A stretch of 64,000 nt of DNA from Cyanobacteria bacterium FACHB-502 (GTDB lineage: Bacteria; Cyanobacteriota; Cyanobacteriia; Elainellales; Elainellaceae), in NCBI GenBank assembly GCA_014695325.1, contig JACJNZ010000055.1:248001-312000 (forward strand), written 5' to 3'. The notes beneath the pieces were generated by a model. That model worked only from the letters and a program-made list of their open reading frames with translations, was not told where the DNA came from and ran no database searches. Made by a program: the position numbers and the translations under genes. Positions 8,359 to 34,606 of the stretch are shown here, one piece after another. Numbering within the stretch: the first letter of the stretch is position 1; each line of letters starts with the position of its first letter.

Positions 8359-11300
8359 TTAAAGGGTCATGGGGGCGATCGGCTCAATGTCAGGATCGTT
8401 GCCGCCGATTTGATTGGTTCGCAGTACCCAGACCGAGGCTCCTTCGCGCAGGAAAACCCGGACGACTGCATCGTTTGCCAGCCGGGGCAGCAGGGTACGC
8501 CAGCTCGTTAAACCCATCCAGAGGTTACGGAGGGGGCTATCTTCCAGGGTGCAGCCGAGGTTGTATTCGCCGCGTTTCCAGTCCGATCGCGCATCGCCTA
8601 AGGGCTGCAATTGTCGCTGGAGTGCTTTGCCGAGTCGGATGAGCTGGTCGTAGCGATCGGCTTGTGCGGGGTGAGTCTCGATCCATGCCTTGATAATGTC
8701 TGGATTGGTCCGTACGACGTGCTGAATGGCGCGAATACTGGCAAACAACGCTTGATTAGAATCTTGGGAGCAGTTGTTGGCAGGGCCAACATAGGTTCCG
8801 CCTGTGCCGTCGCCGATGCGATAGCGAGCGGTCATCACCTGGAGTTGGCGCAGCATAGTATCGAGCGGGGAAGGCTTTGTGCCGTTGTAGTCAAAATAGC
8901 CCGTAAATGCCTCCAGCTTGATCAAAATATCGCAGACCGGACGCACCCCCACCCAGCCAAACTGACGATCGCCTAGATATCTTGACCAGTGCAGCGTTCC
9001 GGCAATCAGTCCGTCGGTGTTGTGGGTGTAGACCTGATGATAGCGAATGTCAAACCGCAGCTCGTCAGCTAAGGGATCACGAACCACTTCTGCGACGCCA
9101 TAGGCAAAGTGCCCGAAGAAGATCGGTGTTGCTGCCGCTGGCTCTCGCTTTTTGCCACCGATGCCGCCATAGCTGTGCAGCACGAGTGCTCGATCGCCTG
9201 CTTTCCAGGTATTCACCGCATCCTGAATTGTTCCGTCTTTAACTTCCTCGGACGCCTCAAGCAGCACAGAGCTAATTTTGCCTTTCTGTGCCTTGACATC
9301 TGCCCAGGCTTCGCGGTGGATATAGCGATAGGCGCGATTTCGTCCAAATAAAACGCGATCGGGCTGGAGCCGCAACAGCGATCGAGGGGCGATCGACTGC
9401 ACGACAAACATTCCGGTCTTGTTCTGTGCCCCGTAGATATACCAGCCGGTTTCGTTCAGGTAAGACTGTTCGATGCCTTGAGTCGTGGAAGGAAAGCAGC
9501 CGTTTTGATCAGCGATTACAGGCGGCATTCTGACAATTTCGGTTCCACCGTCAAATTGGCGTGAGGCGCGGTTAAAGTGAACAACCTGGAAGCAATCGGT
9601 TCCGGCAATGGGCTGGATAAATTGGACGAGTGCGTAGAAGCGACCTGTAATCTGGACGGGTTGGGTGCGGATATAGAGGGTGGAGGTGGATGTAGAGGGG
9701 AGGGGATGCGGGGATGCGGGGTTGGGAGGGCTAATTTGGACGGGGTCGATTTGGACGGGGTCGTTGAGGAGGACGATAACATCATCGGCTGGATGCGAGC
9801 CTGGGATCGATTCGAGGGGATCGACTTGCTGCCAGTGGTTGAGGCGTTCGGGGTGGACGAGTCCGCCATATTCGCTGCTGAACTCGGCGTTGGGACTGAA
9901 GTGAACGTCGCGGGTGACTCGTTTGACGAACTGCTGGACTTCGGGATCGGTTGACCAGCGCAGTTTTACCCGTTGTCCAATGAGCGATTCATACTCTGGG
10001 GGCGTGTGATAAACCTCGAACCAGACGCCGCGCACCTGCTGCCGTTCGGAATGCTGAGGGAGGATGAGCCGTCCCATCCAGTTGCCGATCGGCTGATAGC
10101 GATCGAGATCGAGGGATTGCTCAATCGGGTAATAGTCGGGCGAATTAAAGGGGGCGCGTTTGTATCGTTGATAATTGCTGAGCTGATGTGGAACTCGCTC
10201 GATCGCCGGAATGAATTCACCGCGCAGGATTTTGAGAATCGATGCGATCGTTTGCTGAAGGCAGGTTTGCCCATCGGGAAGTAAAGCCTCCGGGTCCATC
10301 ATTCCGCCCGGAATTTGATGCGCCATTGCCCCCATCGAGATCATGCTGATTTTGCCCTGCCGCTTTGCCCGATTCCAGTAGGACAAGAAAAATAGCTTCC
10401 AGCGACCGGGAAACATGACAGGACCAATTCGCTCGACAAAATCCTTATCCCCCACCAAATGGTAAAGGTGTTCAAGGACGAGGATATTATTGTTCGCGCT
10501 CATTACGCCGCCAAGGGAAATGACATCGATCGGTGCGCTCGTGGCTCTGGTCAGATACGGAGCGGCTGCAATCGACATTTCCCCGCCGCCGCTATAGCCG
10601 ATCAGCGTAATCGGAACCCCGCTTCCGACGACATAGCCTCGCTCCTGTAAGCCGTTAAACAGCACTTGAGCAATGCCCTGGTTGTAGATCGGTCCATAGC
10701 GTTTGTCGGCGGAAACCGCGACGATGAGTACATTGCGGAGGTTAAGCAAAATTCCCAGCAGCGCAGTCGGATTGCTGAACCGCACCTTATCCGCCAACTG
10801 CCAGAGAAACGCGAGGGGACGGTCTTCGTTCAGCGGCTTGTTCAATACCGAGTACATCATCAGCCCCCGCACTAGCATCACGTCCCTGGGCAGGGCAGAT
10901 TCCAGGGCATCTAGAAAGTCCATCACGTCCGGCGTGTATTCGTCGCCCGATTGCCCGATGCCATCCAGATAAACGATGTAGCGCGAAACGTTTGGGGCGG
11001 CTGAAGCCGTGTCCGCTGTTTCCGGTTCTCGCAGTGCGGTATTGCCAGAACTCGTGTCTAAATCATCGCCATACCAGCCAGCCCACCAGCCCAGCGTTTC
11101 CAGAGGAGCCAGGATTCCAGCAAAGACGATCGCCACTACGCCAATCCAGAGCAGGTCGACCAGAAAAATCAGCAAACTGGGCAGCGTGTTATACCAGCCA
11201 AACAGGGCTTCTTTGACCGGACGCAGCAGGATCGCAATGACGACAAACAAAATCGCCATTGCCAGCAGCGACAGCAGCTTAATTTGCTGAAATGAACTTT

Positions 11301-12246
11301 GTGCAGAAGATTGCGGCTCACTCGAGCCGATCGCATTTACCGCCATCGGTTCTTCGATCGAGAACGGTTCCCGTGCTGGCACATTCCCTTTAAGAGACTG
11401 GGAAGCCACGATTGCCGATGCTTGAGCCGCCTCTGCCAGCGATCGAACCCGATCGGGTTCTACTCGATTGCCACGTAGCCTGGTAACGCCCTGCTGAATT
11501 GGCTGCTCCTGATTTGCCTGTGGTGTTCGAGCTGCCGGGATTATCGGGGAGGCTGCCTGGGAAAAGCTCGACCGCACCAATTCTATTAGCTCTGCCTGCC
11601 TCAGTCGCAGCGGTACACCTGCCACCCGCTCGGCGAGCAGCTTTCCTAATCGGGCAATGGGCTGTCCGATCGTTCCTTCTAGGAGCTGAAGCACAATCCA
11701 CCCGATCGCAACATAGCCAAACCCGGTTCCTGCCGTCACGCCTGCCACTGCCGAGAAGCCTACCACCGCAGACAGCAATCGCCACACTGACAGCACCGTG
11801 AGAATTGGAACCCCTAGATAGGGCAGCGCGCCCAGGAAGCTAAATAGCAGCGGCGCGTAGCTGAGTCCCAGCACTTTAATCAGGGTCAGGAGCGGGAAGC
11901 TCACTGCCCAGGAGACCCAGCAAATCAGCCAGGTACTTGCCACCAGAAACAAAAAGCCAAACGTAAACAGAATGGCATTCAGCAGCAAACTAAACACAAA
12001 GCGGGCAGGCTGCACCCGATTCACAAACAGAACGATCGCCTGCCCCAGTGACAACGACAGACCCGCTAGGAGAACGGTGAGCAGGGCAATCCAGAATTCG
12101 CTGGACAAAGACAGCGGCAAAGCGAGTGCGTCTATAAACTGACTGACGCTACGGTATGTCTCAGAATTCAGGCTTAGAGCTCCGCTCAGTAATTTTCCTG
12201 CGGTTTGCAACCCTTGAATTTCAGCACTCGACATAACGCTCGACAT
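8359..12246 (-). CDS. Large membrane protein with alpha/beta-hydrolase-like domain
   Basis: 1295 residues; two in-phase ATGs sit four codons apart at the 5' end. The N-terminal 200 residues contain about four membrane spans (roughly 51-75, 82-110, 112-140, 142-170), with two more at about 323-342 and 355-382. Then comes a hydrolase-like domain: IVYLDGIGQSGDEY near 424-437 and the nucleophile elbow GYSGGG with Ser552, typical of lipase/esterase folds. The remaining about 650 residues are soluble and unrecognised, with a Ser/Thr/Pro-rich stretch. I read it as a membrane-anchored hydrolase with the enzyme domain on one side of the membrane; substrate unknown. It is divergent from the BrkB/YihY gene. 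Confidence 0.75.
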   Translation of the reverse strand: MSSVMSSAEIQGLQTAGKLLSGALSLNSETYRSVSQFIDALALPLSLSSEFWIALLTVLLAGLSLSLGQAIVLFVNRVQPARFVFSLLLNAILFTFGFLFLVASTWLICWVSWAVSFPLLTLIKVLGLSYAPLLFSFLGALPYLGVPILTVLSVWRLLSAVVGFSAVAGVTAGTGFGYVAIGWIVLQLLEGTIGQPIARLGKLLAERVAGVPLRLRQAELIELVRSSFSQAASPIIPAARTPQANQEQPIQQGVTRLRGNRVEPDRVRSLAEAAQASAIVASQSLKGNVPAREPFSIEEPMAVNAIGSSEPQSSAQSSFQQIKLLSLLAMAILFVVIAILLRPVKEALFGWYNTLPSLLIFLVDLLWIGVVAIVFAGILAPLETLGWWAGWYGDDLDTSSGNTALREPETADTASAAPNVSRYIVYLDGIGQSGDEYTPDVMDFLDALESALPRDVMLVRGLMMYSVLNKPLNEDRPLAFLWQLADKVRFSNPTALLGILLNLRNVLIVAVSADKRYGPIYNQGIAQVLFNGLQERGYVVGSGVPITLIGYSGGGEMSIAAAPYLTRATSAPIDVISLGGVMSANNNILVLEHLYHLVGDKDFVERIGPVMFPGRWKLFFLSYWNRAKRQGKISMISMGAMAHQIPGGMMDPEALLPDGQTCLQQTIASILKILRGEFIPAIERVPHQLSNYQRYKRAPFNSPDYYPIEQSLDLDRYQPIGNWMGRLILPQHSERQQVRGVWFEVYHTPPEYESLIGQRVKLRWSTDPEVQQFVKRVTRDVHFSPNAEFSSEYGGLVHPERLNHWQQVDPLESIPGSHPADDVIVLLNDPVQIDPVQISPPNPASPHPLPSTSTSTLYIRTQPVQITGRFYALVQFIQPIAGTDCFQVVHFNRASRQFDGGTEIVRMPPVIADQNGCFPSTTQGIEQSYLNETGWYIYGAQNKTGMFVVQSIAPRSLLRLQPDRVLFGRNRAYRYIHREAWADVKAQKGKISSVLLEASEEVKDGTIQDAVNTWKAGDRALVLHSYGGIGGKKREPAAATPIFFGHFAYGVAEVVRDPLADELRFDIRYHQVYTHNTDGLIAGTLHWSRYLGDRQFGWVGVRPVCDILIKLEAFTGYFDYNGTKPSPLDTMLRQLQVMTARYRIGDGTGGTYVGPANNCSQDSNQALFASIRAIQHVVRTNPDIIKAWIETHPAQADRYDQLIRLGKALQRQLQPLGDARSDWKRGEYNLGCTLEDSPLRNLWMGLTSWRTLLPRLANDAVVRVFLREGASVWVLRTNQIGGNDPDIEPIAPMTL

Positions 12247-20834: not shown

Positions 20835-21281
20835 CTAAGCTCTCCGCCATTTGCCCATCCATTCACCACCGCGAAATCGCCAGCGCGGAAACAGCAGGCG
20901 CATCACCATCCAGGAGGTGAGATAGACCGCCAGCCAAACTGCGCCATAGTGCAGCACAAATGGTCTGAAGTGAAAAGCAGCGCGATCGAGATGGGGCAAA
21001 ATATCAACTTGAAACAGAATTGCAATCAAAATTCCTTCGGCAATGCCCGCGAAAAACTGAAGCAGTCCGGGCCAGTCGTGATCCCAAAGATATTGCTGCA
21101 AAAAGTTATACAGCACGTCCCAGGCTAAGCCAATGATGCCGACGTAGAGCAGCACCCAGTAATAGATTGAGCCTGCCGGAGTGCCCGCCCAGCCTGAAGC
21201 AAAAATCCAGGTGACGAGTAAGCCGATCGTGCAAAGGAGGAAGATTCGAGTTTGCCAGCGTCCGTAAAGGGTGGGGGTCAT
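20835..21281 (-). CDS. Hypothetical membrane protein, last gene of FHA operon
   Basis: 148 residues with four predicted membrane spans (about 12-30, 39-60, 72-92, 108-130) and a basic C-tail (PRWRFRGGEWMGKWRRA). No recognised family. It lies 132 bp downstream of the FHA-oxidoreductase gene on the same strand, so it may be its membrane partner; that link rests on position only. Confidence 0.7.
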   Translation of the reverse strand: MTPTLYGRWQTRIFLLCTIGLLVTWIFASGWAGTPAGSIYYWVLLYVGIIGLAWDVLYNFLQQYLWDHDWPGLLQFFAGIAEGILIAILFQVDILPHLDRAAFHFRPFVLHYGAVWLAVYLTSWMVMRLLFPRWRFRGGEWMGKWRRA

Positions 21282-21413
21282 AGGAGGAGGGAGGTAGAAG
21301 ATAGCAGGGGAGTAGGGATGGGGGCAAGCTTTGCTGTTTGTTCTGGAAATTTTGGGAGAACTGGGTTGCTGAACCTGCCCGTTTAAGCCTGAGGGAGGAG
21401 GAATTTAGAGAAA

Positions 21414-23477
21414 TTAAGGGGATTGGTTGCCGAGCCATCGGAGCCATTGCACGATCGAGTTAAGGCCTTCGATGTAGTGAACTCCGGGAGCGCGGTGGCG
21501 AGCAAGGGATTCGATCGAGCGATGAGCAGCGTACTGCAAGCCTAGAAACGTATCGACGGGGGCGTAGGGTCCACCAAGGGTAATCACGCCTGCCGCGTAC
21601 ATTTTGGCGCGATCGTTCCGCATTTGCTGAATCTCGAAATCGTTGGCAACGTTCAGCCGTTTTTGCGGATTGAGATCCAAGTTGTAATGGGTGATCAAAT
21701 CATTCAGCAGGGGGTGTTCTTTGGGATCGGAGATCAGTCCGGTACAGTCAATCACAAAGTCTGCTTCGATTTTGTCGATGCCGTCGTAGTCGCGGCTGCG
21801 GATGTAGGTCATCACTTTGCCGTCGGGACTGCGATCGACCTTATCCACTTGACCAAACTTGATCGTGTACCAGCCTTCCTGTAAGCCTTGCTTGATCGTG
21901 CGTCGCCAGGGTCCACGACTGGCAGTGGTGGTTCCGCCCCAGGCCGTTAGCAGTTCGCGTCGACGAAGGGGGTCGGCAGCTTCCAGCATCGATCGCATAT
22001 CGCCACCCCAGGTTCCTTTGGGCCAGTTAAAGGGCTGAAACTCCCAGTGGTTTTCGACTTTGCGCTTTGCCCGTTCAAATTTGTTGCCCGAACGCGGCGA
22101 TCGGCTCAGATGAACCACCGCAATGCGCGGATTCACTTTACGGGCTTTGGCAATGCGATCCATGATTTGCGACCCCACAATACCAAATCCGCGAATTACT
22201 AGCGTCCCGCCTTTACGTTCGAGCTGCTCAAACACATGATCGTGTGGCTCGTAGCCATGTACCACTGATTTTGTATCGCCTGTGCGTTCGCGGTATTCTT
22301 GCAGATCGTCTAGCAGTTTGATTGCCGGATAACCCGTGCAAAGATGCACATACTTTGCCAACAAAAAGCGATAGTCGGGTGCGCCGGGAGGTCGGGTAGC
22401 CGAGTAAGCGATCGCATAGCGTCCGTCTTCGGTTTTGCGAATGCTGCGAATACTGCCATAGCGCACCATCCGATCCCAGCCAATCCGCTCAGCTTCTCGA
22501 TCCATTGATTTGAACACATTATCCGCGATCGGCGTATAGGTATCTGCCGCGACGGGTTCTGCAAACACCTGCCATAGATAGCCCAGTGCTGCACCTACTC
22601 GACCGGAGAAGGTATCGCGCCATGCCTCACGCAATGCGTATCCAGGGAAACCCCAGATATTATCTGGGCAAGAATCTGAACCCGATCGAATTCGCTTATA
22701 GCGGGGAATTTGGCAGTTATTCAGCAGGGTTGCGTAGCGTCCGTAGGGTTTTTTCTGAATGCTGAGAACGGCAATGCGATCGGGCTTCACGCCTGAAACT
22801 CGCAGCGTATCCACCCAAACAAACGATCCCATTCCACCACCGAGAGCTGCATAATCAATTTCCTCAACTGGATAACCCGTGGCGTGCAGCGCAGAAATCG
22901 AAACCCGATCGGCGGCAAACACGTCGGCGGGAGGAAACACATTGCGCGTCGTCACCGTAGGACGAGACGGAGTCACGTTCGATTCAACGCGAGATTCAAT
23001 GCGATCGGTTTCTGGATTAAAGATAATGGTCGAGAGTCGCGCTGGGGCTGGGGGAACCGGAATGGAAGCTTCCTGCGGATTAATAATAATCGTAGACTGG
23101 GGGGCAGCAAGCGGTGGATTAATGACTTGAGTCGGAGCAGCAAGGCGAGCAAACGCGATGGTGATCAGATAAGCACCAATTTGCAGCCTGTCGCCCGGAT
23201 AGAGCCGGAGCCGATCACGGGAGATAGACTGTCCATTCACGCTGGAGCCGTTGGTGCTGCGATCTTCATAGATGACCTGTCCTTCGACTTCGAACAGCAA
23301 GCCGTGATACCGCGAAACTTCGTGATCTGCGTTGAGCAGCAGTAGCGGAAAAACGGGCTGGTCGTCCAGCATTGCGGGCAAAAAGGGCTGGTCTCGTCCG
23401 ATCGCGATCGGCAAGCGTGCAATTTGCTGCTGAGGCTCTGAAGTAACAGGATCATTCCAGGTTAGTTGGATTTCCAT
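21414..23477 (-). CDS. FHA domain fused to FAD/NAD(P)-binding oxidoreductase-like protein
   Basis: 687 residues. Residues about 20-110 are an FHA phosphothreonine-binding domain with the expected GR (27-28), SRYH (55-58) and STNGSSVNG (74-82). A Pro/Thr linker follows. From about 200 there is a large flavoprotein-like region: GGGMGSF at 213-219, TGYPA near 381-385, a second dinucleotide-binding turn RGFGIVGS at 429-436, and DFVIDCTGL further on. These features fit FAD/NAD(P)-dependent oxidoreductases of the lysine/ornithine monooxygenase type, but the first glycine motif is not a textbook GxGxxG. The fusion suggests a redox enzyme recruited or switched by Thr phosphorylation. The second FHA gene is 36 bp upstream. 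Confidence 0.8.
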   Translation of the reverse strand: MEIQLTWNDPVTSEPQQQIARLPIAIGRDQPFLPAMLDDQPVFPLLLLNADHEVSRYHGLLFEVEGQVIYEDRSTNGSSVNGQSISRDRLRLYPGDRLQIGAYLITIAFARLAAPTQVINPPLAAPQSTIIINPQEASIPVPPAPARLSTIIFNPETDRIESRVESNVTPSRPTVTTRNVFPPADVFAADRVSISALHATGYPVEEIDYAALGGGMGSFVWVDTLRVSGVKPDRIAVLSIQKKPYGRYATLLNNCQIPRYKRIRSGSDSCPDNIWGFPGYALREAWRDTFSGRVGAALGYLWQVFAEPVAADTYTPIADNVFKSMDREAERIGWDRMVRYGSIRSIRKTEDGRYAIAYSATRPPGAPDYRFLLAKYVHLCTGYPAIKLLDDLQEYRERTGDTKSVVHGYEPHDHVFEQLERKGGTLVIRGFGIVGSQIMDRIAKARKVNPRIAVVHLSRSPRSGNKFERAKRKVENHWEFQPFNWPKGTWGGDMRSMLEAADPLRRRELLTAWGGTTTASRGPWRRTIKQGLQEGWYTIKFGQVDKVDRSPDGKVMTYIRSRDYDGIDKIEADFVIDCTGLISDPKEHPLLNDLITHYNLDLNPQKRLNVANDFEIQQMRNDRAKMYAAGVITLGGPYAPVDTFLGLQYAAHRSIESLARHRAPGVHYIEGLNSIVQWLRWLGNQSP

Positions 23478-23513
23478 TGCGGTTCACCAAAAAAGGGGGC
23501 GATGAAACGGGGA

Positions 23514-24053
23514 CTATTCTTGTTCAAAAATGAGCGTTGCACCGAGGATGGCACGTCCGCAGACTTCGCAAGTCAGCTTTTTGTAGTCCATCGGGAAAAA
23601 GTGGGACTCTCGGACATTGCTGCATCGCAGGGCATATCGTGATTGAGGCGGACGCGAGGGAGATGCGCTGACTTGAGCAAGCTCTACTTCGATCGTTTTG
23701 ACATGCAGCAGCATCTTGCCCAGCTGAATATGACTGCCCGAATGAATCGGCAACTCCTGACCAATCACAGTCTGTCCGTCTACCAAAACCGGATTGGCGG
23801 CACTGGGGGGCTGACGATCGCGTGTTAAATTTCTTACGCAAAACTGATTGGAACGAGGATCAAAAAAGATTTCTGCATGAAGTCCAGAAACTGTTCTTTC
23901 GATCGCCGTATCAGGATGTTTCAAAACAACATCACATTTTGTTTCATCCCGACCAATCCGAATTGATCCCGGCTCCTTTGTGTTTTCAGTTGGCGACAGC
24001 GTTTGAGAAAGGTTCTGGCTTAAAACGCGCCACTCTAGGGTGAGGTGAGACAT
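23514..24053 (-). CDS. FHA-domain protein with C-terminal Cys motif
   Basis: 179 residues. FHA domain at about 30-118 with SIRIGRDETKCDV, a TVSGLHAEIFF core and a later LVDGQTVIG loop. After a linker, the tail carries LRCSN and LTCEVCG, three cysteines that could hold zinc. No enzymatic domain. First gene of the three-gene FHA operon; its stop is 36 bp from the FHA-oxidoreductase start. It would bind phosphothreonine on a kinase or substrate. The Ser/Thr kinase at 14.2 kb is a possible source of the mark. Confidence 0.85.
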   Translation of the reverse strand: MSHLTLEWRVLSQNLSQTLSPTENTKEPGSIRIGRDETKCDVVLKHPDTAIERTVSGLHAEIFFDPRSNQFCVRNLTRDRQPPSAANPVLVDGQTVIGQELPIHSGSHIQLGKMLLHVKTIEVELAQVSASPSRPPQSRYALRCSNVRESHFFPMDYKKLTCEVCGRAILGATLIFEQE

Positions 24054-25152
24054 AAAACTAAAACCAGTGGAGGCTAAAGAGAATGGACGAACGACGACTC
24101 GAAAAAACGCTCAGAGTTTGCTGTTTTGTACCCGCCCGCTCAATTTCCCACCGTTGGAAAAGTTAAATCTAAATTTGTAGGACAAACTTTCCTCCAAACT
24201 GGAAGCTGAGATGAGAAATGTACTTTTTGATCAAGCAAAGAACCTGATCAAATCAAAACAACAAAATCGATCGTTTTAATCTTTTTGTTTCAAGACATTT
24301 ACACTGCTCGGAAAAATATCTTGCCTGGAAAACATTGAGCTAGAATCGATCGAGTGCCAAAAAACAATTCAGGCAAATGCTTTCGATACAGTGCTTCAAG
24401 CAGAATGTTCCAAGCAAAGCATTTCAAACCAGGGCAGCAAGAAGTTTGCGGACAAGCAATTACTGAACTGCCTTGTTTCGATTAGGAAAATAGACTAATA
24501 ATTGATAGTAAATATACCAATTACTAGACGAATTGATCTAAACGAAAAATGAAACTTTACTCTGGATCTGCTGTTTTTGCGAGGACGATCTATAACATTT
24601 TGTAAACCTTGCAAATCATCATAATCGCAGGAGCCCGGTAAGCCATTCCCCTAAAAGGAAATCTGCTTTACAGAAAACGGTAAGGGGGCTGACGGCTTTT
24701 CGAGCGAGAGAACGGGAGTGAATGTGCTTGATATCCTAAGTAACAATCCCCCCTGCTCCAATTCCGTAAGAAAGGCAGTCGATTTTATAATTTGAACAAT
24801 TTTTTAAGCGATAGATAGAGCCAGAATCCGAACTGGCACTTGGATTAAAAGAAACAATTAAGAAAAACGATCGCCCTCAATTCTCCCTGATTTGGAAGCT
24901 ACTGTTCTGTTGCGGGCAAGCTAAACAAGTTCAGAGAAAATGTTCATGATTGCTGTTACAAAACGCAAACTTCTAGGGATGAGTTGGGGGCGATCGATGA
25001 TTAACGTGCAGTAGAGACATTTACTGTCCTTCGCCCTTTGCAATATCTAGAGTGAGCAATGCCTGTACTCATTGACTGACCACTAGACTACAAAACCCGG
25101 TGGGCAATGCCTTGGGTTATACAGCAAAGCTTAAAGAAGCTGCGATTGAATT
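24054..25152. other. 1.1-kb non-coding region downstream of the rep gene
   Basis: No convincing gene in any frame. The left 150 bp must carry the FHA operon promoter. Around 24631-24700 two CGGTAAG copies and complementary blocks (AGCC with GGCT, CCCCT with AGGGG) end in TTTT, which might fold as a stem-loop RNA or terminator. Near 25050-25115 the words GAGCAATGCCT and GGGCAATGCCT recur. The rest is AT-rich. It could be part of the replicon described to its right. Confidence 0.45.
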
Positions 25153-28100
25153 TCACCTAATGAGCGTTAGTAATTTAATTGCAAGGACTTCATGATGCTG
25201 ATGACTTGCGAGGGAATCGGGCAATAAGGAATCAAGGGCTACATCAACGTTGATTCTATGACGATAAGAATTCAACGAGGATTGCTTTTGGGTTTTTCCT
25301 TGTAACTGGTTTGATCCAGCTTTTGATCGATCGAATTGATCTATATCAGAGGGTGGATCAGGGTCGGCGATCGGAATCATTGAAATCAATGCTGATGTTG
25401 CAGCATGCTGGCTTGCTTCTTTGGTTTCAGTAGTTTCAGTTGCCTGAGCGATCGTCTCTTGCTGCTGCCACTGGGCAAAAATTATGTCTCGTCCGTCTTC
25501 AGGTTGGCGATACTGATAAACTCTCAACCCTCCTCGTCGCCCATCTTGCGCCACATCGCGCCCTACACAGGTTAATTTCAATCCCAGTTTGCCTAACAGC
25601 GCCTGGATAACCTCGATCGGTTTCATTTTGTTTGAAATCGTCAGGTTGAGAATGGTTTTGATGTCGTGACGGTATTGGTTAGCGCGTTCGTAAAGCTGCT
25701 GCACATCGGTATCGGTTGCGCGAACTCGGCGATCGGAATCAAGGAAATTTAGAATGCCTAAAACTCGCAGGGTTTCAACCTGGGCTGTGAGCAGTTTTAC
25801 GTCCTGGAGTGCTACCTTGCCATTGCCGTGATCGAGGTGTTCCTGCAATTCCTTCAGGTCGCGCAACTGCACAAAGCTCAAATCGTGACTCAAGTAATAA
25901 TGCAGTCGAAGCTGAGCGTACCATCCCTCGTCGTCTTTAATTTTTAGCTCTGGCGTTACTGGAATGGGATAGCGTCGCTGCAATTCATGTTTAGTTTGGG
26001 CATAGCGTTCGGCGATCGTCTTCGATCGCTGGTCTTTGAGGCGATTGTATTCTGTAAAAGTCAAATCGGCTGCCCTGGAGATTGCCTGTGCTTCTCTGAG
26101 CCGGCTCTGCTGCTGAATTGCTTTGATTTGTGCAAGGATTTCTGCAATGGTCTGTTTTGCGATCGCCTCATCATTTTGTTCTTGTAACGGTTCGCCTCCA
26201 GACAGTTTCAACACATTGCCTTGGGGGTCTTCCTGAATAATTTGTTCGATCGATTGGGTTTTAGATTTTTCAGTTTGTTGGGAATTAAACTGTTTGGAAT
26301 CGAGTTGCTCGATGTCAGGCTGTTCGGTATCAAATTGCTCAGCATCAAGCGATCGAATGTCAGGTGGCAGGTTCAGGGAATCGTCACTGATTGTGGTAAC
26401 TTTGTGTCCTTCCATGACCAAGCCATTGTGAAACTCGTTGCGATAGCTCCACAGTGATAAGTTGACCCGCGCTGCCATTTTTGCCCAGCTTCGCAATGTA
26501 ATTGGATCAGTCTGGACATCAATATCAAAATCAACTTCTTTCAGTAGCGCAATGTTGTACTTTACCGCTTTCGTTGTGGAATGAATGACATCCTGATAGC
26601 TGCAACTGCCGTTACCGACTTTTCGAGGACCAAAGCGGGCTGCCCAAACCAATCGGGGAACTGGCTCCCGCACCCGTGCTAATGCTTGCCGTGATTCTGT
26701 GTCGGATGTAACGCCCTGAAAGATGCCGAAAACGGCTTGAAAGTGCCCTTTAATATCGATCGAAATTCCCGTTCCGATCGTTGGTGTTGCCAGCACAATA
26801 TCGTAGGTGGAAATCACCTGATTCAGCCGCTTCAAAATTTCATAGGCAGGATGTAAAGGGTCGGCAACGCTCTCGGAGTCAATGCGAAGAATGCGCTTGT
26901 GTGGGTAGCAGGATTGCAAATAGGTTTCGAGGTTTTTAGAACTCCATTTGCCGCTGACCTTTTGGGAATCTACTGCAATATAAACTGCGCCCTTCTGGAT
27001 AAACTCGCTCACCTGAGACAGCAGCGGAGCTGGATTTTTGGTGTCGTAAAACGAGACTGCCCATCCGGTTTCTGGCTTCCAGTCATTGACAACAATCCAG
27101 GGATCGATCGATTCATCAACCAATCCTTTCAAATAGTCAATGCTGACATCCGATAAATCGGCATCCTGAGCAATGATCAATCCTCCGCTGCTTAGCACAA
27201 CCTGCACCAGCTCTCGCAGCGTCTCCAGGATTTTGATTCGATGTTGATAGCAAGTGCTGGAGTTGAGAACGTGCCATAACACCTGCTCCACCTCATCTAG
27301 AATGACGATCGCGCCTTTCCAACTCTGTGGGTTAAAGCGTGCCTGAGACGTTGGATGGAGTGAATCAATACAAAGTCCATATCCTGATAAATTTTGTAGA
27401 TTTTGGATCTCCAATCCTTTGATTTCTTCGATCCAATCAATCCCAATATCTTTGCAAATCGCACGTCCGAGCTGAATTCGGTGGCTGATCACCAGCACTT
27501 TGCGTCCGGTGCTTGCTGCTTTTTGAATGAGCGGCTGGAGTGCAGTGGTCTTGCCTGTTCCCTTAGCACTTTTGATGCAGGCTAACCCCGAATCAGGATA
27601 GGGCAGATCGCTCACATAAGGAGTGTTCAGCGCGATCGCCGCAGGATAAGTCAGTGCCCAAAGTCTTGATGCCAGCCAGAACTGAAGCGGCAGCGCAACC
27701 TTATAGAGATCCTCAAAGGATTGCTGCCCGTGCGCGACGATAAAATCATCCACGCCTTTTTGTGAACCGGGCAGCGTGATCACCTGAACCGAGCATCCAG
27801 CAGCATCAAGCAGTGTGCCAAGCTTCGTGATTGCCAGGTTGATATTTTTAATGATCTTGGGCTTGGTTTCGTAGTCAAAGCAAATATAAATCGATCGATC
27901 GACCGTCGCAAAATAAGCCAGTTCGGGAATAAGCTGCTGAGTTTCTTTGCGATAGCCGCTGAAAATTCCTGGCAGGGCGATCGCTGCATATCCCTGCGTC
28001 AACAAGCAACCTGCCTTCTTTTCCCCTTCGGTGACGATAACGGGAATATTCCACTTCCAGACCCAGCACCAGAATCCGCAGGGGCGATCCGCAGGGGTGA

Positions 28101-28605
28101 TCGGAGTGTTGTAGCGTTGAGCAACCTTATCCCAGATCGACTGCGGTACATCCAGCAGAACAAGGCGACTAGACCCAGCACCGAGCCGGGGACTGAGGTA
28201 TTTTGCGGGTTTGCCTTTGGTGCGATCGAGCACAGGCGTTGCAGCATCGGGTTTGAAGCGTCCCCATGCCATGCGCTGCCAGGCGTTGAAAGGGTCAACT
28301 CCGCTCACCCACCAGCCGCGCAGATGCGATCGGGTTTTCTGTCCAAATCGGGTAATGTTCCAGTTCAGTCGCTCGGCGATCGGAAACAGGCTCTCTGCGT
28401 AGCCATTGACGGCAGTATCAATCAGCGTTTCGACATTAAGCGCAATAATGCCGGGGTCAACTCCGCTATCCAACCACTCTTGAACATGGTCTGCTGCGGT
28501 CTTGTGACTCCAACAACTTGTCTCAATCGATCGTAAATTTTGCAGGCTTTTAATGTTTGCCTGATTGCTTGCCTGATCGTTTACCTGATCATTTAACCCG
28601 ATCAC
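25153..28605 (-). CDS. CyRepA1-type plasmid replication initiator (DUF3854 plus helicase-like)
   Basis: 1150 residues from a GTG at 28605, with AGGA seven bases upstream. An ATG at 28613 runs straight into a stop, which supports the GTG. Motifs in order: TOPRIM-like DUF3854 region (VIVTEGEKKA 189-198, ICFDYET 241-247, KGVDDF 283-288); Walker A AKGTGKTT at 347-354; Walker B IVILDEVE at 433-440; ATPTIGTGISID near 606-617; and a QALARVRE arginine motif near 640-647. The C-terminal half is helical with an acidic Gln/Asp-rich linker. This layout is that of cyanobacterial plasmid initiators annotated as CyRepA1, combining primase-like and helicase-like parts. Iterons and an inverted operator lie just upstream. 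No partition gene is present. Confidence 0.85.
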   Translation of the reverse strand: MIGLNDQVNDQASNQANIKSLQNLRSIETSCWSHKTAADHVQEWLDSGVDPGIIALNVETLIDTAVNGYAESLFPIAERLNWNITRFGQKTRSHLRGWWVSGVDPFNAWQRMAWGRFKPDAATPVLDRTKGKPAKYLSPRLGAGSSRLVLLDVPQSIWDKVAQRYNTPITPADRPCGFWCWVWKWNIPVIVTEGEKKAGCLLTQGYAAIALPGIFSGYRKETQQLIPELAYFATVDRSIYICFDYETKPKIIKNINLAITKLGTLLDAAGCSVQVITLPGSQKGVDDFIVAHGQQSFEDLYKVALPLQFWLASRLWALTYPAAIALNTPYVSDLPYPDSGLACIKSAKGTGKTTALQPLIQKAASTGRKVLVISHRIQLGRAICKDIGIDWIEEIKGLEIQNLQNLSGYGLCIDSLHPTSQARFNPQSWKGAIVILDEVEQVLWHVLNSSTCYQHRIKILETLRELVQVVLSSGGLIIAQDADLSDVSIDYLKGLVDESIDPWIVVNDWKPETGWAVSFYDTKNPAPLLSQVSEFIQKGAVYIAVDSQKVSGKWSSKNLETYLQSCYPHKRILRIDSESVADPLHPAYEILKRLNQVISTYDIVLATPTIGTGISIDIKGHFQAVFGIFQGVTSDTESRQALARVREPVPRLVWAARFGPRKVGNGSCSYQDVIHSTTKAVKYNIALLKEVDFDIDVQTDPITLRSWAKMAARVNLSLWSYRNEFHNGLVMEGHKVTTISDDSLNLPPDIRSLDAEQFDTEQPDIEQLDSKQFNSQQTEKSKTQSIEQIIQEDPQGNVLKLSGGEPLQEQNDEAIAKQTIAEILAQIKAIQQQSRLREAQAISRAADLTFTEYNRLKDQRSKTIAERYAQTKHELQRRYPIPVTPELKIKDDEGWYAQLRLHYYLSHDLSFVQLRDLKELQEHLDHGNGKVALQDVKLLTAQVETLRVLGILNFLDSDRRVRATDTDVQQLYERANQYRHDIKTILNLTISNKMKPIEVIQALLGKLGLKLTCVGRDVAQDGRRGGLRVYQYRQPEDGRDIIFAQWQQQETIAQATETTETKEASQHAATSALISMIPIADPDPPSDIDQFDRSKAGSNQLQGKTQKQSSLNSYRHRINVDVALDSLLPDSLASHQHHEVLAIKLLTLIR

Positions 28606-28677
28606 AGAATCATCCTAATTGCGATCGGATCGGTTATATCAGACTCAAAAATTATAGTTCGCCTTGAGATCGCCGCA

Positions 28678-28700
28678 TTTGTAATCAACCTGATTACAAA
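28678..28700. promoter_or_regulatory. Inverted iteron half-sites, likely rep operator
   Basis: Perfect inverted repeat: TTTGTAATCA (28678-28687), spacer ACC, TGATTACAAA (28691-28700). Each arm contains the iteron right box TGTAATCA. It lies 73 bp before the rep start codon, where an autoregulatory operator is expected. In other iteron plasmids, Rep dimers bind such inverted half-sites to repress rep while monomers bind iterons. Confidence 0.7.
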
Positions 28701-28764
28701 ACTATCTTCTTAAAAGGACTCAACGCCTTATTCTGTCGATCGTGTCCGCTGAGATCAGAGGGGG

Positions 28765-28796
28765 GGATCTAGAAAGTTGAGGGGCAGGGATCTAGA
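28765..28796 (+). repeat. Two left-box half-iterons
   Basis: GGATCTAGA at 28765-28773 and 28788-28796, each followed by AAGTT-like sequence but not by the right box TGTAATCA. They are 23 bp apart, the exact length of a full iteron, so they look like decayed or half-sites at the left edge of the array. Confidence 0.7.
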
Positions 28797-28809
28797 AAGT
28801 TTGGGTCAG

Positions 28810-29142
28810 GGATCTAGAAATTCTTGTAATCATTTTGGGGGTGTAGTTCTAGAGCCTTTTGTAATCACAGGCTTGGGGGCAAGGTTCTAGACGGCTTTGT
28901 AATCATACCGGGTTGGTGCAACCTGAAACCCTTGCAACATCAGGAAGAGCGGCTCAGGAACCGTTGTAATCAGCTTAGAGATAGAGTGGATTTTGCGGGA
29001 AATGGGAAAGGGTTCTGGGAAGTGTTGTAATCAGTTTGAGCTGGAATCGTGAAGAAGGGATGGGGATAGGCTCCTAGAAAAACTGTAATCACAAATTAGG
29101 AATCACAAATTAGGGTTAGGGTTCTAGAGCCGCATGTAATCA
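28810..29142 (+). repeat. Array of seven 23-bp iterons
   Basis: Each unit has a left box GGTTCTAGA (or close), six variable bases, and a right box TGTAATCA, all on the plus strand. Units: 28810-28832, 28845-28867, 28883-28905, 28950-28972, 29011-29033, 29069-29091 and 29120-29142. The right box is identical in all seven. The left box is exact or one base off in units 1, 2, 3 and 7 and degenerate in 4, 5 and 6. Start-to-start distances are 35, 38, 67, 61, 58 and 51 bp. Confidence 0.9.
29087..29114. repeat. 14-bp tandem repeat inside iteron array
   Basis: AATCACAAATTAGG occurs at 29087-29100 and again directly at 29101-29114. The first copy starts within the right box of iteron six. The second copy duplicates only the AATCA end of the box. 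Confidence 0.9.
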
Positions 29143-29253
29143 GGAAGCCGGGTAGACAACCTGACTATCTTTCTTCAAGTCTCAAAGATGGGCTTAAATT
29201 CTCAAAGACAGAACCATGACGAATCGCTCCCGCTCTAACCCCTTCTGATGATG

Positions 29254-30153
29254 TTAATTGCGATCGAACGACTGCTGATGAGACTGCTGAATTTGCAGGG
29301 AAGTGACTGCCGCCAGAATCAATCCGCTACCTAGAATTTGCAGAACGGTGAGCGTTTGACCCAGCAGGAGCCAGGCGAGAATTGCTGCTATTACGGGTTC
29401 CAGCGTTGCGGCGATCGTGCCCCGTTCCACCGAGACTTGCTGAATGCCCCAGCAAAGCAAACAAAACGGAATCAGCGTGCCCCCAATGCCCGTGAACACA
29501 ATGCCGGGAAGATTGCTGGGCTGAAAGACTGCCTCTGGAACGCCCTGGCTGAACTGAACGCCTAGCCAGAACAAGCTGGAGATCAAAAAGCCGCGAAACA
29601 TCACCCCGATCGCCCCGTAATCATGCACCATCGCTTCGCTAAACAGGGTGTATCCGGCAAAGAAAATCGCGCTGAGAACTGCCGCAATCAGCCCCAGTGT
29701 ATCGAGCTTGAGTTCACCCGCACCTACACCCGACACCAGCGCAACCCCCAGCAGCGCAATCCCCGCCGCGATCAACATGGTGAGGTCGGGCAGTTTTTGC
29801 TTCCGAAGGGCACTGGTTAAAACCACGATCGCCGGAGCCGTGTACTGAATCACCAGCGCGATCGCCACCGAGAGCCGATCGATCGCCACATAATAGGTAA
29901 ACGTCACCATTGCCAGTGAGATTCCTAAACCGATCGATCTCGTATCCCACTTCAGTTTTTGCCCTCTCCAGGTGAGGACTGCTAAACCAATCACCGCGAT
30001 CGTTGCCCGCGCAGTCGCAAGCTGAACCGGAGTCACCCCCGATCGAAACAGATTGCTTGCCACAATTGCCGCCACTGACCAAAGAAAAGCTGCCAGTGCG
30101 ATCGCCGCCAAGCCTAACCCACCCGATCGAGGGGTGGTAAGAGAGTTTGACAA
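29254..30153 (-). CDS. DMT-superfamily EamA transporter
   Basis: 299 residues with ten hydrophobic helices in two EamA halves. The first half starts GLAAIALAAFLWSVAAIVAS with RATIAVIGLAVLTWRG; the second has TLFSEAMVHDYGAIGVMFRG and ends VSVERGTIAATLEPVIAAIL, the typical closing motif of the family. Members export amino acids or other metabolites from the cytoplasm; the substrate cannot be told. It is the first gene beyond the putative origin and reads towards it. Confidence 0.92.
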   Translation of the reverse strand: MSNSLTTPRSGGLGLAAIALAAFLWSVAAIVASNLFRSGVTPVQLATARATIAVIGLAVLTWRGQKLKWDTRSIGLGISLAMVTFTYYVAIDRLSVAIALVIQYTAPAIVVLTSALRKQKLPDLTMLIAAGIALLGVALVSGVGAGELKLDTLGLIAAVLSAIFFAGYTLFSEAMVHDYGAIGVMFRGFLISSLFWLGVQFSQGVPEAVFQPSNLPGIVFTGIGGTLIPFCLLCWGIQQVSVERGTIAATLEPVIAAILAWLLLGQTLTVLQILGSGLILAAVTSLQIQQSHQQSFDRN

Positions 30154-32584: not shown

Positions 32585-33271
32585 ATGTCACCGATTAAAG
32601 CTGTTCAATCGACTTATTACGGAGGAGATTCCTTTTACCGGACTCCGCCGCCAGACCTCCCTTCCCTGCTGCTGAAGGAGCGGATTATCTATCTCGGCTT
32701 GCCGCTGGTGTCGTCTGATGATTTTAAGCGACAGATGGGCGTCGACGTGACCAAGCTGATCATTGCTCAGTTGCTCTATCTGCAATTTGACGATCCCGAT
32801 AAGCCGATCTATTTCTACATTAACTCTACCGGAACTTCCTGGTACACCGGAGACGCGATCGGCTACGAAACCGAAGCATTTGCCATCTGCGACACGATGA
32901 GCTACATCAAGCCTCCGGTTCACACCATCTGCATTGGTCAGGCGATGGGAACTGCCGCCATGATTCTCTCTGCCGGAACAAAGGGCTTCCGCGCTAGCTT
33001 GCCTCACGCCACGATCGTCCTCAACCAGCCGCGTACAGGCGCACAGGGTCAGGCAACGGATATTCAAATTCGGGCAAAAGAAGTGCTGGTGAACAAAGCC
33101 GCGATGCTTGACATCCTGGCTCACAACACAGGTCAGACTTCAGAAAAGATCGCCAAAGACACCGATCGGATGTTCTATATGACTCCAGCAGAAGCGAAGG
33201 AATATGGACTGCTCGATCGAGTTCTGGAAAGCGTTAAAGACCTGCCGAAACCGATCCCTGCTCTGACCTAA
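32585..33271 (+). CDS. Catalytically dead Clp protease subunit paralogue (ClpR-like)
   Basis: 228 residues with the ClpP fold: [40 protein letters not shown] and [20 protein letters not shown]. All three catalytic positions are changed: the Ser of GLAASM is Gly in IGQAMGTA, the His of MIHQ is Asn in VLNQP, and the catalytic Asp is Met in DTDRMFY. It must therefore be a structural or regulatory ring subunit. It has an insertion before the FAICDTM helix ([20 protein letters not shown]). It leads a three-gene cluster with ClpR and ClpP3-like genes. Most cyanobacteria are known for a two-gene clpR-clpP3 operon, so this is an extra member. Confidence 0.85.
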
Positions 33272-33297
33272 CTGGCAAACTTTATTGGCAAAGCTCT

Positions 33298-33963
33298 ATG
33301 TCCGTTGATCCTATTTTGCGCGTTCCCTATAACATTCCGGGCAGTCCGAACTGGCAGTGGGTTAACATCTACACGCGCATGAGCCAGGAGCGGATCATTT
33401 TTCTGAATCAGCCGATTACGGACGGTTTAGCAAATTCGATCGTCTCGGCACTGCTCTACCTGGACTCCGACGACCAGAACAAGCCCATCTACCTCTATAT
33501 CAACTCGCTGGGCGACCCGCTTGCCGCAGGCATGGCTTCGATCACGGCAGGCATGATTTCGGTGACGGCGGGGCTGGCAATCTACGACACGATGCAGCAC
33601 ATCAAATCGGAGATTATCACGATCTGTATGGGTCAGGCAGTCGGAATGTCTGCGCTCTTGCTGTCTTCGGGAACCAAGGGTAAACGCGCAAGCCTTCCCC
33701 ACGCCTCGATCGCCCTGATGCCCACTCGCACCGGAACTCAAGGACAGGCAACCGATATTGAGGTCACTGCCAGAGAAGTGCTGGGCAAGCAGTCCCTGAT
33801 TCTAGACATTCTCTCGAAGAACACCGGACAGCCCGTTGAGAAACTTGCTAAAGACACCGATCGCATCTTCTATATGACGCCTCATGAGGCAAAAGAATAC
33901 GGACTGATCGATCGCGTTGCCGAAAGCAATAAAATTGCTCAACCCCAAGCTGCCCTGGTGTAA
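33298..33963 (+). CDS. clpR: ClpR, inactive Clp protease subunit
   Basis: 221 residues. ClpP fold ([38 protein letters not shown]) with a 13-residue insertion [12 protein letters not shown] before [10 protein letters not shown], a known mark of cyanobacterial ClpR. The Ser position is Gly ([12 protein letters not shown]), the His position is Met (IALMPTRTG) and the Asp position is Ile (DTDRIFYMT), so it cannot cut peptides. In Synechococcus, ClpR forms a mixed core with ClpP3 that works with ClpC and is essential. Starts 26 bp after the upstream paralogue and is followed 37 bp later by the active subunit. Confidence 0.9.
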
Positions 33964-34000
33964 CCCACTCACCCATCCACACCCCTACCACACATCCCCT

Positions 34001-34606
34001 ATGCCCATTGGAATTCCCAGCGTCCCCTATCGCCTCCCCGGAAGCTCCTACGAGCAGTGGATCAGCATTTACGAACGGCTGTTCCGGGAGCGGATTATCT
34101 TCCTAGCTGAAGAAGTCGATGATGCCATTGCGAATGCGATCGTCGCCTATATGCTCTATCTCGACTCCGAAGACCAGAGTAAGCCAATTTATCTCTATAT
34201 CAACTCGCCCGGTGGTTCTGTCACCGCAGGCATGGCAATCTACGACACGATGCAGCACATCAAGTCGGAAGTCGTTACTATCTGCGTTGGTCTGGCTGCT
34301 TCGATGGGGGCATTTCTCTTGACTGCAGGCAACAAAGGCAAACGGCTCGCCCTGCCCCACGCTCGCATCATGATTCACCAGCCTCTCGGCGGCACGGGGC
34401 GCAGGCAGGCAACTGATATCGACATCGAAGCTAGAGAAATCCTGCGAACCCGGACTCGTCTGAATGCGCTGATGGCGTATCACACAGGCAAACCCGTTGA
34501 GCAAATTGAGCGGGATACCGATCGCGATAATTTTATGTCGGCTCAAGAAGCGAAAGAGTACGGGCTGATCGATCAGGTGATTGAAAGCCAGGCACTTGTT
34601 CGATAA
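34001..34606 (+). CDS. clpP3: Active Clp protease subunit, ClpP3-like
   Basis: 201 residues from the ATG at 34001; a longer frame overlapping clpR is rejected. Catalytic Ser101 (GLAASMGA), His126 (IMIHQPLGG) and Asp176 (DTDRDNFMS) are all present. N-terminal [20 protein letters not shown], with the PYRLPG segment, matches ClpP3 and ClpR of cyanobacteria. As last gene of the cluster, it supplies the only proteolytic site for a ring with the two inactive paralogues. Confidence 0.9.

Follow-up and report, generated by a model that had tools for sequence, protein, structure and literature searches.

A chromosomal CyRepA1 initiator gene with an iteron array and a putative operator in a cyanobacterium

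Results

We analysed a stretch of 64,000 nucleotides (the window) from Cyanobacteria bacterium FACHB-502, whose 6.6-Mb draft genome comprises 100 contigs; the window corresponds to positions 248001-312000 of contig C52. It carries a gene for a replication initiator of the CyRepA1 family, with an inverted repeat and an array of direct repeats (iterons) upstream of it, arranged as follows.

25153-28605, minus strand: CyRepA1-family initiator gene (1150 aa, GTG start); domains of the product: DUF3854/TOPRIM primase-like, ~178-295; SF2 helicase core, ~339-740; helical C-terminal region, ~810-1060
28678-28700: inverted repeat TTTGTAATCA-ACC-TGATTACAAA, putative autoregulatory operator, 73-95 bp upstream of the start codon
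28764-28798, plus strand: two half-units GGGATCTAGAAA with the left box only, 23 bp apart
28802-29142, plus strand: iteron array of seven co-directional units GGG...GGnTCTAGA-N6-TGTAATCA, upstream of the initiator gene
28825, 28860, 28898, 28965, 29026, 29084 and 29135, plus strand: right boxes TGTAATCA of the array

An initial annotation, made from the sequence alone, had described a 1150-residue initiator with TOPRIM-like, Walker A/B and arginine motifs, and both profile matches and an alignment of 21 relatives confirmed this. The protein matched DUF3854 (PF12965, E=3.7e-44) and belongs to the CyRepA1 equivalog family of NCBIfam (NF042913; 443 bits against a cut-off of 200, with profile positions 2-594 of 595 covered). 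The TOPRIM-like residues E193, D244 and K283-G284-D286, Walker A (G349-T-G-K352), Walker B (D437-E438-x-E440-Q441) and SF2 motif VI (Q640...R644-x-R646) were unchanged across the alignment. Since these residues are invariant, the full-length product looks functional. Purifying selection was indicated for the window gene by a proportion of nonsynonymous differences (pN) of 0.17 against a saturated synonymous proportion (pS) of 0.75, and for other close CyRepA1 pairs by ratios of nonsynonymous to synonymous substitution (dN/dS) of 0.07-0.19. The G+C content at third codon positions (GC3) was 0.51, within the host range of 0.55 +- 0.06.

An AlphaFold2 model of the initiator (mean predicted local distance difference test score, pLDDT, 76.6) had as its top match among solved structures the origin-binding protein UL9 of herpes simplex virus 1 bound to OriS (PDB 9hgj, E 1.7e-13). 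Among viral models, marseillevirus and mimivirus-like origin-binding helicases matched best. UL9 and the giant-virus proteins are origin-binding SF2 helicases, and they are the closest structural counterparts of the helicase region of CyRepA1; CyRepA1 differs in its added DUF3854/TOPRIM domain, and sequence identity is ~13%. Whole-chain template modelling scores (TM-scores) were low (0.3), so the likeness is confined to the helicase core. A phage origin of the gene was considered and rejected: no relative was present in viral contigs, and a scan of viral sequences for the repeat pattern gave single scattered matches, which we took as chance.

The array had been described as seven co-directional 23-bp repeats with an invariant right box. 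All seven boxes were present; the repeat unit, however, is longer than 23 bp, at ~32 bp, and all seven units align in a single register. TCTAGA is exact in four of the seven, and the right boxes are irregularly spaced (35, 38, 67, 61, 58 and 51 bp). The full units are preceded by half-units GGGATCTAGA at 28768 and 28791, which have no TGTAATCA, and the putative operator, adjoining the initiator gene, contains an inverted TGTAATCA pair at 28680/28691. Because the genome holds 183 copies of TGTAATCA in 6.6 Mb, 0.013 would be expected in the 463-bp upstream region; nine were found (Poisson P ~3e-23). Array and inverted pair stand beside the gene as initially reported. No sigma-70-like promoter was called at the inverted pair (28678-28700). 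Elsewhere in the genome TCTAGA-N-TGTAATCA occurs at only two places, each time singly.

Iteron plasmid replicons of the RepE/F, pi/R6K and RepA/P1 type have direct repeats beside rep and, at the rep promoter, two half-sites in inverted orientation. The window locus shares this arrangement, with several above-chance direct repeats beside the initiator gene and inverted half-sites near its start. It differs from those replicons in encoding a UL9-like helicase-primase rather than a winged-helix Rep_3 protein, in its longer, irregularly spaced units, and in having no DnaA boxes.

Conservation of the array was assessed in 1150 bp upstream of CyRepA1 genes against 200 dinucleotide shuffles. With a shuffle maximum of 1, TGTAATCA was found 9 times in the window, 10 times each in genomes G005, G044 and G088, 12 times in G045, and 3 times in the 290 bp available in G026. 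All five other genomes also have half-units GGG-TCTAGA together with an inverted pair of TGTAATCA, so the conserved array near homologous genes that the initial annotation had named as a test does exist. When TCTAGA-N-TGTAATCA was sought without bias in 36 genomes of the order, 9 of the 16 places that matched were immediately upstream of a CyRepA1 gene. Joint inheritance of gene and array is best supported by three congeneric genomes, G005, G044 and G045. There both occupy a single syntenic locus, next to a photolyase-like gene and further ordinary genes, and these neighbours were kept while the CyRepA1 proteins diverged to 58-65% identity.

Other lineages carry other repeats. AGTACT-N-TCCAC was found upstream of CyRepA1 in G020 and FACHB-63 (7 and 4 copies; shuffles 0), and T[GA]TAAC-N-GCG in genomes of the f16 lineage (2-7 copies; shuffle maximum 1); both patterns were written after reading the sequences, and their shuffle tests are descriptive rather than independent. 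The loci of the closest relatives of the window protein (L017, L046, L047) show the bipartite form AAGTACTTGAAA-N-TTTCCACTGnnTGATACG, and G020 and FACHB-63 also share a gene of ~511 aa upstream of CyRepA1. L132, L138, L142 and other f16 loci carry repeats of the form CTGTAACTCTAGCGTC, CTACCAC repeats nearer CyRepA1 and a conserved divergent neighbour of ~367 aa. No such array was seen upstream of the chromosomal copies of lineages f31, f32, f23 and f37; the f31 copies have a palindrome-like element in common (for example AACGCTATATATAGCGTC in G271). The array as a universal CyRepA1 feature was rejected, since most plasmid copies, including that of pSYSA, had none at the sensitivity used.

The locus is chromosomal. 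It lies inside a 325-kb contig that also carries a full-length dnaA at 37.6 kb, and Pfam matches for psbO (PF01716), three ClpP genes (PF00574) and an RsmE-type gene (PF04452), together with a pair of sqdB/sqdX-like epimerase and glycosyltransferase genes, bear out the initial view that the window is not a free plasmid. The locus is bordered as follows.

23514-24053, minus strand: left flank, FHA gene of a conserved chromosomal cluster (20835-24053)
24054-25152: AT-rich (60%) stretch of 1.1 kb without a long open reading frame (ORF), downstream of the initiator gene, at the edge of a synteny break
29254-30153, minus strand: right flank, EamA transporter beside a methyltransferase gene, as in the same-genus genome G001

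The gap between the flanks (24054-29253) contains only CyRepA1, the array and AT-rich DNA; no gene for partition, mobilisation, an integrase or a transposase was seen next to the locus, and the window has no tRNA that could mark an integration site. A look for an empty site in close relatives found the left and right flanks rearranged and not adjacent to each other there. G001, which has the EamA/methyltransferase pair, carries its nearest CyRepA1 on another contig.

Further CyRepA1 copies of this genome lie on the small contigs C81, C87, C94 and C97. They are distant from the window copy in the tree and had no upstream repeat array above shuffles. C94 (G000:C94, L126-L128; ~53.8 kb) has identical contig ends of 113 bp and its own CyRepA1; given this overlap, it is probably a complete circular plasmid.

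Across the class, CyRepA1 relatives at E<=1e-120 were found in 86 of 390 genomes. A family-profile match more than 400 kb into a contig was present in 22 of 62 genomes, a chosen set rich in complete genomes, and single-contig genomes were among the 22; chromosomal copies are therefore common, and in many cyanobacteria relatives lie on contigs of several megabases. This agrees with a 2024 count of chromosomal CyRepA homologues in 80 of 145 cyanobacteria, whose authors say that their function needs validation (PMC10899382). In a 63-row tree, built by a quick method with SH-aLRT (Shimodaira-Hasegawa-like approximate likelihood-ratio test) support only, the chromosomal copies fell into three well-supported clades (f32; f31+f37+f23; f1+f16), the window copy in the last. 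Its nearest rows were G020, SM1_3_5 and FACHB-63, the last identical to G270:C96. Because G270 carries a second copy, of f16 type, the window subclade has probably moved between families.

The initial annotation had linked the locus to replication without DnaA. The dnaA search that it proposed did find a gene, and since dnaA is present, replacement of DnaA is not needed in this genome. Among the 390 genomes, 20 lacked dnaA, and 13 of these 20 are near-complete. At least 5 of the 13 (G166, G178, G323, G361, G388) had no CyRepA1 at E<=1e-15; this speaks against a general replacement role, and CyRepA1 as a general DnaA substitute is not supported. Two dnaA-less genomes (G300, G352) have CyRepA1 only on contigs with plasmid-like numbers and at low coordinates; six have it on the chromosome or on a contig of unclear status (G355, G385, G172, G343, G358, G367). 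In this last group, the single-contig genomes G355 (C1:1396591-1399600; L300) and G385 (C1:1419198; L299) keep intact chromosomal genes, under purifying selection when compared with each other (dN/dS 0.17).

Discussion

We favour, with a probability of about 0.5, the reading that this locus is an intact CyRepA1-iteron replication unit turned chromosomal resident, autoregulated and acting as an auxiliary origin that works without DnaA, alongside the DnaA system. The intact gene, its place on the chromosome and the retention of array and operator with the gene in other genomes were observed directly; binding, autorepression and firing are what we infer from them. With an origin-binding SF2 helicase and a TOPRIM primase-like domain in one chain, CyRepA1 would most likely bind the TGTAATCA boxes. 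At the inverted pair beside its own gene it would act as a repressor of its own synthesis, whereas at the direct array it would unwind the DNA locally and load replication there. Because the inverted pair lies near the start codon and the direct array beyond it, autorepression at the former and initiation at the latter make the simplest model. CyRepA1 with its upstream region is enough for autonomous replication (PMC9978351), and dnaA deletion mutants of S. elongatus start replication from an integrated plasmid origin instead (PMC7198777).

Several observations weigh against this reading. The array shows no helical phasing at ~20-22 bp, its spacing of 35-67 bp being irregular; no strongly AT-rich unwinding element was found at it (AT maximum 0.62 per 100 bp); and the proposed check for DnaA boxes came out negative, with none at one mismatch or fewer near the array and no cluster on C52. 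Nor did the suggested GC-skew shift appear: there was no switch at the array, where the V statistic (0.44) equalled the contig median. As skew is often irregular in cyanobacteria (PMC7198777), its flatness is weak evidence against firing. Skew was set aside as origin evidence, being negative in both C52 and G355, where a coarse minimum near the gene failed in contiguous sequence. The sister sequences of the window protein use a different repeat. Finally, the window copy has no neighbour gene in common with any relative, and its closest sequences are found in another family and, for G020:C31, on a contig with a ParA-like gene; for these reasons it may have arrived later than loci of the G005 type.

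These last points would also fit a recent plasmid integration that left a rep gene still intact in appearance, a silent origin and nothing else of the plasmid. The synteny break, the flanks that are not neighbours in relatives, the G001 pair with no CyRepA1 nearby, and the transfer between families implied by G020:C31 and FACHB-63/G270 all speak for such an event. Against it stand the lack of any other plasmid gene or integrase at the site, an intact gene and operator with GC3 in the host range, and the vertical inheritance of equivalent loci in three congeners, which keep gene, array and operator together. We consider recent integration rather unlikely. The initial annotation had offered an integrated plasmid that may still fire, or a chromosomal origin of plasmid descent; a plasmid-type initiator, array and operator do lie on the chromosome, but the integrated plasmid was not upheld, as no plasmid gene was seen beside the locus and loci of this type are widespread and vertically kept in other chromosomes.

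It is less probable still that the locus has been domesticated to a function other than initiation, with CyRepA1 repressing its own or other genes, or with the array serving as an incompatibility decoy to keep out incoming plasmids that share its specificity. The f31, f32, f23 and f37 copies show that a CyRepA1 gene can be kept without an array; the plasmid-type paralogues of this genome have no array, and the differing repeat dialects of close relatives resemble incompatibility groups. Such a function would by itself leave unexplained why a full helicase and primase-like domain were retained, and why there is an array where a single site would do; moreover, no regulon is apparent, as the only two other TCTAGA-N-TGTAATCA places are single. 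An assembly chimera joining a plasmid contig to the chromosome is conceivable in a draft of 100 contigs but very improbable, given the position inside the dnaA-bearing 325-kb contig and the same kind of chromosomal copy in single-contig genomes and at syntenic loci of relatives.

The best-known family member, CyRepA1 (Slr7037) of pSYSA from Synechocystis PCC 6803, has the same domain order and a rep gene with an upstream control region. It differs in being plasmid-borne, in its control by sense and antisense RNA (ssr7036/asRNA1; PMC9978351), and in that we found no repeat array upstream of rep. The chromosomal homologues counted earlier (PMC10899382) are a like gene in a like place, for which no binding sites had been defined. 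To these homologues the present analysis adds the array, the operator, the repeat dialects and the syntenic retention. Among open-licence papers, those on CyRepA that were consulted do not describe array and operator, and nowhere in their main texts, including that of PMC10899382, is the word iteron used; within that scope, which does not prove priority, the initial remark that this combination is not well described holds.

The conserved array and operator supply specific candidate sequences, and they would define an iteron-type origin for an initiator family used in cyanobacterial vectors. The locus thus offers a concrete place to test DnaA-independent chromosome initiation in cyanobacteria. 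A broader proposal, that chromosomal CyRepA1 loci are working origins which help to explain DnaA-independent replication, that their rep-iteron pairs diversify in specificity, and that CyRepA1 is the initiator in dnaA-less G355 and G385, is speculative and in our view doubtful.

Additional observations

A 1295-aa ORF at 8359-12246 had no Pfam match at 1e-5. The cluster at 20835-24053 is syntenic in G003, G007, G011 and G014; of its three products, one is an unknown protein of 148 aa, one an FHA-bearing protein of 687 aa that looks oxidoreductase-like by eye, and one an FHA protein. The three ClpP-family genes of the window stand in a row at 32585-34606.

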